Program-made: the position numbers and the translations under genes
Origin: a virus
DNA length: 35,134 nt
Virus record (IMG/VR): IMGVR_UViG_3300045135_001414
Coordinates: 1-35,134 of that record
Strand: one strand, 5' to 3'
Notes under the pieces: generated by a model
Told to the model about the DNA's origin: nothing
The model's input: the letters and a program-made list of their open reading frames with translations, nothing else
Database searches by the model: none
Shown here: one piece after another, positions 3,150-35,134 of the stretch
Layout: the number at the start of each line of letters is the position of its first letter
Position numbering within the stretch: the first letter of the stretch is position 1

Positions 3150-3800
3150 ATGAATAAACTAAATGAGTGTGATCTAAGACGCTCGATAATGAAAAGCACA
3201 GACTTTACACCTGCCACTAAACTCACTCTACTGGCTATCTTGCTTAAGGTAGATTGGAATACATGGCGAGGCCCTTGCACTATTACAGAGCTTGAGAGCC
3301 TAGCAGGCTTGAGCAGGAGAGCAGTGCAAACTGCTGTTAAGAGTCTAACTGATGCAGGCTTAGTGGCTAGATCATGGGCTAGCATTAATGATAGGCGCTT
3401 GCCTGTGATTGCATTAAATGCTCATAAGATTATGGGGGTGCAAAATCTGCAGGGTGCAAAATCTGCACAGTGCAAATCTAGCACCTTAGGGGGTGCAAAT
3501 CCTGCGTTTAAGGGTGCAAATCCTGCGTTTCACAGTGCAGAATCTGCGCCCTTACAATATAACAATAATAACAATACTATTATACAACCTAAAGAACAGA
3601 CTCAGGCTTTAGCTTATGAAGCTATTAATGAGACTACTCTAAACTCATCACTGCCTAAGACTCAGCACAAGCTTACACCTGCAATGATTAACACCATTGA
3701 GAGCCATGCTAAATACTCTGGGCATGATGAGAGAGTAAAAGTAGCTCGAGAGCATTTAAACATTAAACTACTTAAAGGCGGTTATTATGAACAAATCTAA
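3150..3800 (+). CDS. Replication initiator, winged-helix (lambda O-like role)
   Basis: The 216-residue protein has an N-terminal winged-helix domain (about residues 22-75). It includes TITELESLAGLSRRAVQTAVKS, with recognition-helix character, followed by LTDAGLVARSW and INDRRLPVI as the wing, as in many phage initiators. The central part (about 95-130) is low complexity because the DNA encodes six iterons there. The C-terminal part (175-216) is helical. It is the first gene of the rightward operon and overlaps the DnaC-like loader by 14 nt, the O-P arrangement of lambdoid phages. Known biology: such initiators bind iterons within their own gene and recruit the loader. The exact family is not certain. 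Confidence 0.75.
   Translation: MNKLNECDLRRSIMKSTDFTPATKLTLLAILLKVDWNTWRGPCTITELESLAGLSRRAVQTAVKSLTDAGLVARSWASINDRRLPVIALNAHKIMGVQNLQGAKSAQCKSSTLGGANPAFKGANPAFHSAESAPLQYNNNNNTIIQPKEQTQALAYEAINETTLNSSLPKTQHKLTPAMINTIESHAKYSGHDERVKVAREHLNIKLLKGGYYEQI
3436..3548 (+). repeat. Six iterons inside the initiator gene (candidate replication origin)
   Basis: Six copies of a 16-bp unit, consensus near GGGTGCAAATCCTGCG, occur at 3436-3451, 3452-3467, 3468-3483, 3491-3506, 3512-3527 and 3533-3548. Start-to-start spacing is 16, 16, 23, 21 and 21 bp. Copies 1 and 2 are identical (GGGTGCAAAATCTGCA), as are copies 4 and 5 (GGGTGCAAATCCTGCG). The 21-bp spacing puts copies on one helix face. An AT-rich stretch follows directly. 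Confidence 0.75.
3551..3602. other. AT-rich stretch next to the iterons (candidate unwinding element)
   Basis: The bases after the last iteron are strongly AT-rich, with AACAATAATAACAATACTAT-type sequence, and encode a run of Asn. The order of iterons then AT-rich DNA within the initiator gene is the layout of lambda ori. This is inferred from layout. Confidence 0.55.
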
Positions 3801-4710
3801 CACCCATGGCATGCAACCCCTAATCACTCCACAGCTTCTAAATCAAATCAAAGCACTTAAGAGCTTGCGAGCTCAACAGCCTGCTAAACCTGCCAAGCCT
3901 AAGCTATCATTTAAACATCTAAACGCATCTAACCTAGAGGCTGAGGGTTTTGTGCATCTAACCTCGTCAAGATTTAGCACTAAACCGGTGCCCTATTGTG
4001 GGCAGTGTAATGATGGCTGGGCTGATGCAGGTATTGAGAGAACAGTAAAGCTCTGCACAGATTGTGAGATACCAAGGCGCAAGCTTAAACGCCTTAATGA
4101 TCTAAACCTACCCTCAGATGCTAATGGTGCTCATCTTGGCATGTATGAATGGGATAGCTCACAGCAAAGAGAGAGAATACAAAACCTCATGGGATGGATG
4201 ATGTACGGGCGTGCTCACTCGCCTCAATCTCCATCTGTTTTAATGTATGGCTCTCCTGGGAATGGCAAGACCACTTTACACTATGCTCTAGCTAAAGAGG
4301 CTGTGTTTAATGATCACAGAGTTTTATTTACTACTCACACTGCTCTACTCGAGAGAGTTAAAAATACATTTGGAAGCTCAGAGAAAAACCCTTTATCAGA
4401 TGGCAAGTGGCTTAAGGGTGTTGACCTGCTTTTATTTGATGAGCTTGGTGGCATTGGTGGCAAGAGTGAGATGAGTAACTGGGCTTATACTCAAAGTGTA
4501 GATATCATAGGCCATATTTATGAGCGGTGGGCTAGTGGCTCTCTCTCTGTGCTTATGACTAGTAATCTCACTCCGAAGCAGATTGCTAAGTATTTCCAAC
4601 ATAACCGAGCGGTGGGCAGTAGATTAATAGATATGTTTGGTGAGCCAATACACATGCAAGGCCCAGACAGACGCACTAATCATCACCTTAGCAATGTATA
4701 TGGGTTTTAA
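3787..4710 (+). CDS. DnaC-like AAA+ helicase loader with zinc knuckle
   Basis: The 307-residue protein loads the replicative helicase at the origin. Residues 71-93 hold four Cys (C71, C74, C90, C93), a zinc-binding module typical of DnaC/DnaI-type loaders. The ATPase core has Walker A GSPGNGKT (155-162), Walker B LLLFDE (214-219), a sensor-1-like TSN (258-260) and NRAVGSRL (273-280) with the Arg residues expected for the DnaC/IstB family. The first 50 residues (Pro/Lys-rich) probably contact helicase or initiator. The ATG overlaps the initiator's 3' end by 14 nt, implying coupled translation. No helicase gene is seen, so the host helicase is probably recruited. Confidence 0.88.
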   Translation: MNKSNTHGMQPLITPQLLNQIKALKSLRAQQPAKPAKPKLSFKHLNASNLEAEGFVHLTSSRFSTKPVPYCGQCNDGWADAGIERTVKLCTDCEIPRRKLKRLNDLNLPSDANGAHLGMYEWDSSQQRERIQNLMGWMMYGRAHSPQSPSVLMYGSPGNGKTTLHYALAKEAVFNDHRVLFTTHTALLERVKNTFGSSEKNPLSDGKWLKGVDLLLFDELGGIGGKSEMSNWAYTQSVDIIGHIYERWASGSLSVLMTSNLTPKQIAKYFQHNRAVGSRLIDMFGEPIHMQGPDRRTNHHLSNVYGF

Positions 4711-5459: not shown

Positions 5460-5580
5460 CCACTTTGCAAATCAAATACTCGATATTAAAAGGCGTTTAA
5501 AAGAGCATGACAGTAAACAGAATAACACTAGTGGGCAATGTGGGCAAGGATGCAGAGCTAAAGAAGACTCAGGGCAGTAG
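5353..5580 (+). CDS. Small helical protein overlapping both neighbours
   Basis: The 75-residue frame begins 107 nt before the RHH gene ends and finishes 74 nt after SSB starts. Residues 5-52 read like a real helical protein (KLEMSLMQCQIYYKFWDSQR, then RAAESANHFANQILDIKRRL). The last 20 residues coincide with the SSB start in another frame and look unselected. Internal ATGs at 5380 and 5389 are alternative starts. No family is recognised. Without this gene there would be a 47-nt gap between RHH and SSB, so it could also be a shadow. Confidence 0.45.
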   Translation: MLTEREKLEMSLMQCQIYYKFWDSQRHLPRAAESANHFANQILDIKRRLKEHDSKQNNTSGQCGQGCRAKEDSGQ

Positions 5581-5935
5581 CTATGCGAGATTTACCCTAG
5601 CCACCAATACCAACTATAAAAATAATGCAGGTGAGTGGGTTACTGAAACAGAGTGGCATAATGTAAAGGTGTGGGGCCTCACAGCAGAGAGAGCAGTAAG
5701 CCAGTGCAGAAAAGGTAAGCTAGTTTATGTTGAGGGTAAACTTGTGAGCTATGAGCATGAGGGGCGCAGGCTGTGGGATGTAAAAGCAGATCTATTTAGA
5801 GTGCTTGATAAATCAAACTCATCTACAGAGCACCCATCATCTGAGCTTATTGGCCCGGAGTCACAGGCTACAGTAGAGCCAAGTGGTAACCCTTGGAGTT
5901 ATCCAATACCGAATAATGATTCATGGCGTAAGTAA
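5507..5935 (+). CDS. ssb: Single-stranded DNA-binding protein
   Basis: The 142-residue protein has the OB-fold SSB pattern from its first residues: NRITLVGNVGKDAELKKTQG, then YARFTLATNTNYK, TEWHNVKVWGLTAERA and GKLVYVEGKLVSYEH. It coats single-stranded DNA during replication and supports annealing by the RecT-like protein. The C-terminal third is a polar flexible tail, but its tip is PNNDSWRK rather than the acidic DDDIPF-type peptide that host SSBs use to bind partners. ATG 5507 puts the OB fold at the N-terminus as in the family; its ribosome site is weak and embedded in the overlapping frame. Confidence 0.93.
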   Translation: MTVNRITLVGNVGKDAELKKTQGSSYARFTLATNTNYKNNAGEWVTETEWHNVKVWGLTAERAVSQCRKGKLVYVEGKLVSYEHEGRRLWDVKADLFRVLDKSNSSTEHPSSELIGPESQATVEPSGNPWSYPIPNNDSWRK

Positions 5936-6742: not shown

Positions 6743-7374
6743 TGAGTAACTTTTATGGGTACTTTTTGTTTGATATAAAAAATGAGCCATTGGCTCTAGA
6801 TTGTAATGATATAAGTGATATTCATCCTAATGAGGACATGACTTATATAGTTATGAAAGATGGCACTATACATTTAGTTGCAATTGAAACTGAGTGCTTA
6901 GGGCCTGTTTGGAATAATTATCTAAACTCTACTAGTAAGCCTGTCGAAAGCAGACTTCTTAAGCTAGGAGGGCCACGCATTAAATTAATCAATAAAAATA
7001 CAGGTAAGCATGAGCTTGTATACTTTACTGATATACAAAGTGCAGGATGTGAAAACCATAATGAGGAAGATGGTGCACTGTATCTTTATGAGAGAACAAT
7101 CATAAAATTATTTAATGGGGCTGAATACTATATTGATATTCATGCTCACTGGGTTATTCAAGTGTGGCAACATTTAACTAACCCTAGAGTTTATGCAGGT
7201 ATAAGTATTATAGATCCGTTTAGTAAGCCATTAAAAATAATTCATCATAATGATTTAGAAACTATGGCCTATTCGGACTTTATAGAGTTTGCTAAAGAGA
7301 TATCTGATGATGAGGGGCCTGCATGTAGATACAGAATACTTATGAGTGATGAGGATATGATAAATGTTTACTAA
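6742..7374 (+). CDS. Orphan protein, beta-rich, AT-rich codons
   Basis: The 210-residue protein has no recognised family. It alternates short hydrophobic strands (YGYFLFDI, TYIVMKDGTIHLVAI) with acidic loops and ends in an acidic helix (AYSDFIEFAKEISDDEGPAC). Its start shares one base with the upstream stop (TAATG), so translation is probably coupled, and its end overlaps ThyX by 11 nt. Codon use is visibly more AT-rich than in the structural genes, as in the adjoining ThyX gene, which may mean these two genes arrived together. Confidence 0.65.
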   Translation: MSNFYGYFLFDIKNEPLALDCNDISDIHPNEDMTYIVMKDGTIHLVAIETECLGPVWNNYLNSTSKPVESRLLKLGGPRIKLINKNTGKHELVYFTDIQSAGCENHNEEDGALYLYERTIIKLFNGAEYYIDIHAHWVIQVWQHLTNPRVYAGISIIDPFSKPLKIIHHNDLETMAYSDFIEFAKEISDDEGPACRYRILMSDEDMINVY

Positions 7375-8047
7375 TTATGAATGTGAATTAATTGATTCTA
7401 TGGGCTCTGATTTAACAGTGGTTAACGCTGCAAGAGTGTCCTTTTCTGCTCATAAAAAACCTAATGAGGGTAAATATACTGTTAAGCCAGCGCTTATAGA
7501 AAAAGATGTTAAGCTGCTAAAGTTTTTAGCTGATCATAAACACACAAGCCCCTTTGAGCACTGCACTATTACATTTAGAATTAAGTGCCCTCTGTTTATT
7601 GCTCGTCAAATTATGAGGCACAGAACATTTAGCTATAATGAGATCAGCAGGCGCTATACTTCAAAAGATATTGAGTTTTGGTCACCTGCTCACATGAGAT
7701 CACAAGCTATTAATAATTTGCAGTGCTCTGGTGAAAGATTAGAAGAAGATAAAAGCAAAGAGATAATAGAAACTTATCAAACATTTATTAAAGATGCTTT
7801 TTCACTTTATGAGCAATTCTTAGAGGCAGGTGTATCTAGAGAGCAGGCTAGGGCAATCTTACCACAAAGCATGCATACTACTTTTTACATGACAGGCAAC
7901 TTACTTAACTGGTTTAAGTTTATCAAATTAAGACGAACTACAGAGGCGCAACCTGAGGTTAAGGTTATTGCTGTTGATATAGCTAGAGAGCTTGTAAAAT
8001 TATATCCTGAGTCTTGTAGTGCTTGGGCAGTAGGATATTGGGATTAA
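7364..8047 (+). CDS. thyX: Flavin-dependent thymidylate synthase ThyX
   Basis: The 227-residue enzyme makes dTMP from dUMP using methylene-tetrahydrofolate, FAD and NADPH. The ThyX signature RHR-x2-S-x-NE-x-S appears as RHRTFSYNEISRRYT from residue 85, with R85/R87 and S90 in the FAD/dUMP site. The downstream segment QARAILPQSMHTTFYMTGNL carries the second substrate-binding region, followed by LNWFKFIKLRRTTEAQPEV, a typical ThyX C-terminal helix. Length is normal. It pairs functionally with the dCMP deaminase at 804. Start and end overlap both neighbours. Confidence 0.96.
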   Translation: MFTNYECELIDSMGSDLTVVNAARVSFSAHKKPNEGKYTVKPALIEKDVKLLKFLADHKHTSPFEHCTITFRIKCPLFIARQIMRHRTFSYNEISRRYTSKDIEFWSPAHMRSQAINNLQCSGERLEEDKSKEIIETYQTFIKDAFSLYEQFLEAGVSREQARAILPQSMHTTFYMTGNLLNWFKFIKLRRTTEAQPEVKVIAVDIARELVKLYPESCSAWAVGYWD

Positions 8048-8547
8048 TGAACACTAATAAACAAGATGCTATCTCAATGGCTATTAAACTAAAGCGCAAG
8101 GGCCTGCTTAATAGGCAGATAGTTAGAGAGCTTGATGCCTTGGGTTATCGTAACCCTAAAACATTAAAGCCATGGACTAAGGGCTTAGTGCAAAAAAAAG
8201 TAGAGGGCATTTATCCTGATAAAGATAGTGAGGCTTTAGCTCAAGCCCGAGCCTTAAAAATTAGAGAGCAGGGTTTAACTATTGTGCAAATTGTAAAGCA
8301 ATTAGAGCAAGAGGGATTTATTAGTTATTGGACACAGCGCCCTTTTGGGCTCTCTGCTGTAACTAGATGGGTAAACAATATAGAGCCTAGTTATAAATCA
8401 CGAGCTAAGAAAAGAGCTTTAGAGCTATTTGATGAGGGTGTTTATTTAGCAGAGATAGTGAGAGTTTTAGCTAAAGAGGGCTTGATTAATAAACTTACAG
8501 GCAAGCCTTATAGCAAAAGCTCATTATATAATTGGATATACTTATGA
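8047..8547 (+). CDS. Protein of three tandem HTH-like repeats
   Basis: About 166 residues from ATG 8047, which shares one base with the ThyX stop (TAATG); an in-frame ATG at 8023 lies inside thyX. Three units of about 50 residues follow one another. Each has a helix ending in Gly (LKRKGLLN, LKIREQGLT, LELFDEGVY), then QIVRELDALGYRN / QIVKQLEQEGFIS / EIVRVLAKEGLIN, then T-x-[KR]-P-[WFY] and a final hydrophobic helix. The pattern resembles the DNA-binding module of serine recombinases (LNxxGxxTxxGKxWTxxxV), but no catalytic domain is present. It lies just upstream of the terminase genes, so a DNA-binding role is plausible but unproven. Confidence 0.7.
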   Translation: MNTNKQDAISMAIKLKRKGLLNRQIVRELDALGYRNPKTLKPWTKGLVQKKVEGIYPDKDSEALAQARALKIREQGLTIVQIVKQLEQEGFISYWTQRPFGLSAVTRWVNNIEPSYKSRAKKRALELFDEGVYLAEIVRVLAKEGLINKLTGKPYSKSSLYNWIYL

Positions 8548-8741
8548 ATAAAGAAATTAAAGCACCAAGCAACGCGCACGCAATAGAGATACTGGCTAAG
8601 CTAAGGCGCAAGCTTATAGATAACCATGGCCCAGACCTAGCCAAAGAGTCAGCAGAGCTTTATAATCATATAGAGAAAACACTTTTATCAGCATTGAGAG
8701 AGCATTATGAGCACAAAGAGCAAAGCAGGGCGCAAGTCTAA
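8544..8741 (+). CDS. Small helical protein before the terminase genes
   Basis: About 65 residues from ATG 8544, overlapping the previous stop (ATGA); its end overlaps the small terminase start by 35 nt. The sequence is almost wholly helical and charged (AHAIEILAKLRRKLIDNHGP, AELYNHIEKTLLSALREHYE). No family is recognised. It may be an accessory to terminase or the preceding repeat protein, judged on position only. Confidence 0.55.
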   Translation: MNKEIKAPSNAHAIEILAKLRRKLIDNHGPDLAKESAELYNHIEKTLLSALREHYEHKEQSRAQV

Positions 8742-34144: not shown

Positions 34145-34810
34145 ATGAGTTATAAAACTTTAAAAGTAAACTCAACAGCTCCTGATTCAAGTAATAATAT
34201 ATCTATTGATTCTACTAATTTATTAGATGCAGGGCGCTCTGCTGTTAATTGTGTATTGAGAAAAACTGCTACAGGGTGGGGCTCTAATAGCTGTTTAAAA
34301 GCTTATAGTGGGCATTTAAACTTTAATGAGGATTCTCATGCAGGTAATACTGCTTATCGTTATGATGTAGGAGATAATTATATCTCTCGATATGCAGGCG
34401 GAGAGTATAATCTTCAAGACTCAATCACTTTTATAAATAGCTCAGGCTCATATGTGCCAATAGGGTCTTCATCTTGGGTTATGGGATATACTTTTTCTGG
34501 CTCTGCTTTTAGCGGTAAAACTGTTATTTTAAGAGCAGTAATTGCAGGTAAACACATGACCACTCCTGTTGATTATGACTTTCAGTGGAGACTTGGCAGC
34601 CCTTCCAATGCTTTAAATACAACTACTGCACTCGGCCCATTGGCCAAATGTTTAACTGAATATAGCAGTGTTGCTTATGGAATTTTTACAGGCTCTGGCA
34701 GTGATCAAACTGTTTCAATAAGATTTATCAATAAGACTAGCGGAAGCATTGCAATTACAAGCGGAGCTATTGCTTCAATACAATCAATCACAGCCAAAAT
34801 TATAGAATAA
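34145..34810 (+). CDS. Tail fibre-associated protein, second copy of module
   Basis: The 221-residue protein starts SYKTLKVNSTAPDSSNNISI, parallel to the start of its upstream neighbour, then continues as a beta-rich domain (SSWVMGYTFSGSAFSGKTVI, SDQTVSIRFINKTSGSIAIT). The two probably arose from a common N-terminal adaptor with different receptor domains (inference). TAGGGG lies about 7 nt before ATG. Ser/Thr/Asn-rich composition fits an exposed adhesin. Confidence 0.6.
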   Translation: MSYKTLKVNSTAPDSSNNISIDSTNLLDAGRSAVNCVLRKTATGWGSNSCLKAYSGHLNFNEDSHAGNTAYRYDVGDNYISRYAGGEYNLQDSITFINSSGSYVPIGSSSWVMGYTFSGSAFSGKTVILRAVIAGKHMTTPVDYDFQWRLGSPSNALNTTTALGPLAKCLTEYSSVAYGIFTGSGSDQTVSIRFINKTSGSIAITSGAIASIQSITAKIIE

Positions 34811-34819
34811 GGAGATAAA

Positions 34820-35134
34820 ATGTTTTGTGTAGTTAAATTAAGTGGTAATTTACAGATAGGCACTGTGGTGCAGTTTGACACTGTTAATAATGTGTGGACT
34901 ACTGCCACAGCCCATAATGATTTAATTGGCGTGATTAGCCAAGCACCTCAGCAAAATGAGGATGATCTTACTTGGTGGGGTCATGTGGTTTTTGCAGGTG
35001 TAACTCAAGCATTAGCCCATGAGGCTATCCCTGATCAAGGTGGTGAGCTCTCTATCAATAATGGCAAGGTGTTAGTAGATAATACTGCTGATGGCTGTGG
35101 CATTATTGCACCTCTTGCTAGAGGTCAAGTCTCT
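34820..35134 (+). CDS. Small beta-rich protein, runs off the window (partial)
   Basis: ATG at 34820 follows AAGGAGA (34808-34814) by 5 nt, and 105 codons are open to the window end. The sequence reads FCVVKLSGNLQIGTVVQFDT, then DLIGVISQAPQ and WWGHVVFAGVTQAL, ending within a strand after GIIAPLARGQVS. The pattern of a short strand repeat with 'GVISQ' resembles the decoration protein at 15080 (VVGIAQRA) and the middle domain of the fibre. It may be a fibre-tip or cement-like protein; its true C-terminus is unknown. Confidence 0.65.
   Translation, partial: MFCVVKLSGNLQIGTVVQFDTVNNVWTTATAHNDLIGVISQAPQQNEDDLTWWGHVVFAGVTQALAHEAIPDQGGELSINNGKVLVDNTADGCGIIAPLARGQVS

Follow-up and report, generated by a model that had tools for sequence, protein, structure and literature searches.

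Replication origins whose iterons lie inside a gene are already known from lambdoid phages, and it remains a matter of debate how initiators open the origin DNA and afterwards direct the helicase to the correct strand. The lambda origin has inverted-repeat iterons within O, to which O dimers bind, and the adjacent AT-rich DNA melts (PMC5043065, PMC7466680). In PICI origins, an AT-rich region located 3′ of rep has a set of iterons on either side (PMC6092414), and in Bacillus subtilis the DnaD Recognition Element is made of paired 5′-TnnT-3′ motifs that lie on a single strand where the origin unwinds (PMC10201434). Here, we analyze a viral contig of 35,134 bases, referred to in its entirety as the window, in which the segment 3436-3596 is very probably a phage replication origin working like ori-lambda. 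The sequence supports a candidate origin of the lambda-type intragenic kind, with an iteron distinct from the lambda one and, in place of lambda P, a loader of the AAA+ DnaC type. Judged by the open-access literature that we searched, three features are new: the iteron family, its combination with an AAA+ loader in these uncultured phages, and the tract with phased CAAY described below.

The replication region of the window contains the following genes:

3150-3800, + strand: initiator gene, 216 aa (winged helix aa 1-100, linker aa 100-169, C-terminal domain aa 170-216)
3787-4710, + strand: DnaC-like AAA+ helicase-loader gene, with N-terminal CxxC pairs
5507-5935, + strand: single-strand DNA-binding protein (SSB) gene (Pfam SSB, 3.9e-26)

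The initiator matches Pfam MarR_2 (1.1e-6), the PHROG "replication initiation O-like" profile phrog_678 (2.5e-7), and, also significantly, the winged-helix domain profile phrog_391 (1.1e-4). AlphaFold2, using a 14-sequence alignment, places a confident winged helix at aa 1-100 and a further domain at the C terminus (aa 170-216), which is conserved; pLDDT is below 50 across aa 100-169, and this linker, encoded by the repeat array, is predicted to be disordered. The best fold matches of the model are MarR-type regulators, none with E below 0.001. Direct comparison with lambda O by hhalign gives a weak probability of 5%, and both proteins match phrog_678 (2.5e-7 for the initiator, 1.7e-35 for lambda O). 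There was no Pfam match to a Rep_3/TrfA/RepA-type initiator, so this feature of a Rep_3-type iteron plasmid origin is absent, and no initiator matches were found in annotated phages. The recognition helix of the winged helix reads S-x-R-[ST]-[VI]-Q-N and might bear on iteron specificity. The loader matches PHROG_50 (2.1e-26), its family matches in the Pfam and PHROG profiles are AAA+ IstB/DnaC, and the start of its gene overlaps the 3′ end of the initiator gene by 14 nt. The preliminary description, made from the sequence alone, had proposed a winged-helix host gene overlapped by a DnaC-like loader, and both parts of that proposal are confirmed by these matches. An alignment of the loader against bacterial genomes returned no match. 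Because no DNA polymerase, primase, or helicase was recognized among the genes searched in the window (part of the ORFs were scanned), the phage presumably uses host DnaB and the host replisome. A promoter and terminator scan gave counts no higher than in shuffles. Near the replication genes are also genes for a RecT-like annealing protein on the opposite strand (1234-2358, - strand), a ThyX-type thymidylate synthase (7364-8047, + strand), and a dCMP deaminase (804-1256, + strand).

Within the initiator coding sequence, at 3436-3550, are six iterons, each of which is a version of the inverted repeat GGTGCA-N5-TGCACC, the unit obtained by aligning the window copies with those of relatives:

3436-3453, + strand: iteron 1, GGGTGCAAAATCTGCAGG, GTG codon frame 0, peptide GVQNLQ
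3452-3469, + strand: iteron 2, GGGTGCAAAATCTGCACA, frame 1, peptide GAKSA
3468-3485, + strand: iteron 3, CAGTGCAAATCTAGCACC, frame 2, peptide QCKSST, the most divergent copy
3491-3508, + strand: iteron 4, GGGTGCAAATCCTGCGTT, frame 1, peptide GANPA
3512-3529, + strand: iteron 5, GGGTGCAAATCCTGCGTT, frame 1, peptide GANPA
3533-3550, + strand: iteron 6, CAGTGCAGAATCTGCGCC, frame 1, peptide SAESA

The GTGCA starts fall at 3438, 3454, 3470, 3493, 3514, and 3535 (spacings 16, 16, 23, 21, and 21), in agreement with the six units, three abutting and three at 21-23 bp, that had been noted earlier. The window copies are imperfect palindromes, with 3-5 of 6 arm pairs complementary; nevertheless, each ranks in the top 5-8 of about 70,000 window positions when scored with a leave-one-out matrix built from the other five. 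The array exceeds both chance and the coding constraint. In 2000 synonymous recodings, which keep the protein and redraw the codons from the codon usage of the phage, self-repeat pairs in the gene averaged 6.9 ± 4.6 with a maximum of 27, against 62 seen, and the pattern GTGCA-N5-TGCR with at most one mismatch, expected 1.3 times, reached the observed six in 1 of 3000 recodings.

These properties bear on whether the repeats are simply a by-product of a repetitive functional protein linker, such as a loader-binding region, rather than DNA sites. Every relative translates the segment, and the same residues (G, A, N, S, and Q) keep recurring in it, which favors such a linker. Against this, the iterons are read in codon frames 0, 1, 2, 1, 1, and 1, yielding peptides as unrelated as GVQNL, GAKSA/GANPA, and QCKSS, much as the four annotated lambda iterons, taken as a positive control, occupy frames 0, 2, 2, and 1; the array is lost in synonymous recodings; the linker is predicted to be disordered; and the arms, that is, the iteron half-sites, are more conserved as DNA than the protein is. 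Compared with two relatives that are 71-75% identical, the arms are conserved at 44/48 positions (92%, L005) and 46/48 (96%, L004), the DNA between iterons at 19/33 (58%) and 20/33 (61%), and the rest of the gene at 428/531 (81%) and 381/489 (78%). The arms thus differ from inter-iteron DNA in both comparisons (Fisher, p = 7e-4 for L005 and 8e-5 for L004) and from the rest of the gene at p = 0.08 and p = 0.002, respectively. Protein identity in the linker is 25/39 (64%) with both relatives, compared with 137/177 (77%, L005) and 118/163 (72%, L004) outside it, a drop in the linker that does not reach significance on its own (p = 0.10 and 0.33). From the use of three frames, the destruction of the array by recoding, the conservation of the arms beyond their surroundings, and the predicted disorder of the linker, we infer that selection in the array segment acts on DNA rather than protein, as had been suspected from the low complexity of the encoded peptide, and we regard a protein-linker origin of the repeats as highly improbable.

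Directly adjoining the last iteron, on the loader-gene side, is an AT-rich tract that the preliminary description had placed right after the repeats, with a phased motif inside it:

3552-3596, + strand: AT-rich tract, the probable unwinding element; 82% AT, a higher content than in any other 45-nt stretch of the gene
3555-3588, + strand: phased CAAY array, with CAAY at 3555, 3563, 3572, and 3585; complement RTTG

The tract is confirmed at this position, and it is also asymmetric between strands. Among all runs of the contig that lack G or C, the 45-nt G-free one at 3549-3593 ranks second in length; a 57-nt C-free run on the + strand at 34796-34852, the longest of its kind in the contig, spans a two-gene junction near the right end. 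In the 40 nt past the last iteron, the coding strands of 16 members together contain 14 G versus 115 C. The CAAY motifs are spaced about 10 nt apart, and four of them occur near offsets 3, 11, 21, and 33 in 16/16 members checked, with offsets 1, 11, 22, and 32 in the divergent group. They are encoded variously between members (as Q, NN, or TT) in all three frames. CAAY occurs 383 times in the window, counting both strands, and there is a single chain of four or more at 7- to 13-nt steps, which is the one in the AT-rich tract. No more than 0.5% of dinucleotide-shuffled tracts contain a chain of four, as do 1-10% of synonymous recodings; these figures concern a motif that was spotted post hoc, after viewing the tracts. 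Since recodings reach the chain this often, the peptide partly explains CAAY in a single genome, and the argument is its recurrence across divergent members. On the complement, the tract reads RTTG, mostly TTGT, and all four ACAAY sites of the window read TTGT; in some relatives, a T precedes CAA, which breaks the TnnT fit on the complement. Searching for the GCACCC/CAAY boundary recovered the known family and one further member (L285), and the exact junction seems family-specific. We tentatively suggest that the CAAY/RTTG motifs might be a strand-specific single-strand site, bound by the C-terminal domain of the initiator or by the DnaC-like loader, that directs the helicase onto one strand. 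If true, this phage would encode its own equivalent of the DnaD Recognition Element or DnaA-trios, a conserved origin part without a visible counterpart in ori-lambda.

Searches with the loader and the initiator identified about 20 distinct relatives in viral contigs. Conservation in related phages was a test set beforehand, and every relative with a readable segment keeps the repeat array followed by an AT-rich tract; the tract is at or above the 98th percentile of its gene in 17/17 members, a set that includes near-identical contigs and partial genes and does not represent 17 independent cases. In L017, L019, and L020, the palindromes are exact over 15 nt, and GTGCAAAATATGCAC or close variants occur four times; L017 and L020, whose initiators are 50% identical, carry exact GTGCA-N5-TGCAC palindromes that alternate between two frames. 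Variant iteron units occur in L010, L012, and L023. The divergent group, with 22-24% protein identity, has GTGTCA/TGACAC half-sites at the corresponding position, which in L035 and L039 pair up as GTGTCA-N4-TGACAC palindromes:

L035, 3001-3636: divergent initiator with GTGTCA/TGACAC
L037, 1438-2082: divergent initiator with GTGTCA/TGACAC
L039, 1449-2090: divergent initiator with GTGTCA/TGACAC

That the layout is kept while the iteron sequence changes is as expected for the sites of a replicon-specific initiator, and these three loci provide a natural comparison for iteron specificity.

The TGCA palindrome itself extends beyond this family. At least 119 viral stretches contain two GTGCAAA-N3-TGCR units within 30 nt, compared with 2 for a base-scrambled control. 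Among 61 ORFs scanned, a set that includes the gene of the window and several near relatives, 30 match phrog_270 and 29 match phrog_678, and about half have a match to replication-initiator PHROGs. Initiator PHROGs are also matched by 18/20 hand-picked ORFs from viral contigs and bacterial genomes, a selection made mainly for units that fall in two or more frames, so that no frequency follows from it; those from genomes lie in Bacillota, Bacteroidota, Campylobacterota, and Pseudomonadota contigs. We rejected the palindrome as an origin-specific mark by itself, as collagen-like and tail-fiber repeats, XRE regulators, and Fic genes match too. In L208 (3168-4292), a gene with a Fic domain and a winged helix, two GTGCAAA-N3-TGCAC palindromes lie in two frames of the coding sequence just before the winged-helix part, with similar loci in L165, L182, L244, L253, L260, and L274 (Bacteroidales/Prevotella); in genes of this type, they look like an intragenic operator. 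In L217, L228, L236, and L252 (Lachnospiraceae, Butyrivibrio), two TGCA palindromes immediately precede the probable start of genes for HTH regulators, that of L252 encoding HTH_3 with a nucleotidyltransferase domain, and they are probably the operator of a regulator or toxin-antitoxin-like pair.

The occurrence of paired TGCA palindromes, operator-like, beside XRE-type and Fic genes in bacteria, together with the resemblance of the initiator fold to MarR regulators, which bind palindromes, raises the question of whether the array is instead an operator within the gene, by which the initiator itself or a different winged-helix regulator governs the initiator-loader operon, with no origin present. 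We consider this unlikely. Simple operators seldom need six copies or an unwinding element, whereas here six copies lie about 290 nt into the gene, an AT-rich tract always comes next, and the loader gene adjoins, which is the layout of ori-lambda. The array could nevertheless act as both operator and origin. Iteron-like arrays are used in partition systems as well, and from this general knowledge, the array might serve another DNA transaction, such as partition (a centromere) or packaging (pac). This too has very little probability, because no partition gene was recognized nearby with Pfam and PHROG profiles, the gene for the small terminase subunit lies at 8707, a distance of 5 kb, and divergent phages all keep the array within an O-like initiator gene. 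Just 5′ of the terminase genes is a TTG-start ORF (8023-8547) with a weak Recombinase (PF07508) match, which may be no real gene. A skew switch elsewhere in the genome had been named beforehand as a result that would count against the origin; GC skew is uninformative on this point. At 4-fold-degenerate sites it has no significant extreme at the array (p = 0.13), nearly all genes are on one strand, and raw GC skew is confounded by gene orientation.

The reading that the segment is a lambda-style origin, already put forward in the preliminary description, is supported by the conserved array and AT-rich tract, selection on DNA, and the overlapping loader gene. At such an origin, the winged helix of the initiator would bind the six imperfect palindromes, probably as dimers, and wrap them, and wrapping would strain and melt the AT-rich tract beside the last iteron. 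The C-terminal domain, together with the exposed strand and its phased CAAY/RTTG, may then recruit the DnaC-like loader, which would place host DnaB helicase so that the host replisome takes over. Iterons, melting tract, and strand-asymmetric motif appear to lie within 165 nt beside the AAA+ loader gene, so that each part is alterable by synonymous mutation. The frame test further suggests that the low-complexity linkers of many O-like initiators (GANPA, VQNLH, CKICT) are simply the translation of origin DNA, and it would offer a way to locate origins in many uncharacterized phages.

Like PICI origins, the locus combines iterons and an AT-rich region near a replication initiator gene, but its iterons lie within the gene and to a single side of that region. 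As in the DnaD Recognition Element, a short motif is repeated on one strand of the unwinding region, and TTGT in the window fits TnnT; this likeness is an analogy. The spacing is about 10 nt, and in some relatives the TnnT fit is lost. The PHROG O-like initiators (phrog_678, 391, and 270; e.g., SfV orf39 and Aggregatibacter phage S1249) have the same winged-helix domain, and many carry TGCA palindromes in the linker, as the window does, whereas their AT-rich tract is less uniform, and 23 members checked have no G-poor bias (148 G, 157 C). The window departs from ori-lambda in its iteron, GGTGCA-N5-TGCACC rather than the lambda 18-mer, in the tight abutment of its first three copies, in a G-poor tract with phased CAAY, which is not evident in the lambda sequence, and in a loader that is AAA+ DnaC/IstB-type, with no lambda P homologue. 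With this loader, the module is not lambda O/P in the strict sense; direct similarity to O is weak, though both proteins match phrog_678. It shares with ori-lambda the dyad-symmetric iterons within the initiator gene, read in all three frames, the AT-rich tract on the loader-gene side, the winged-helix initiator, and the adjacent loader gene, and with the lambda-type origins of Stx phages P27 and 933W, the number of six iterons.
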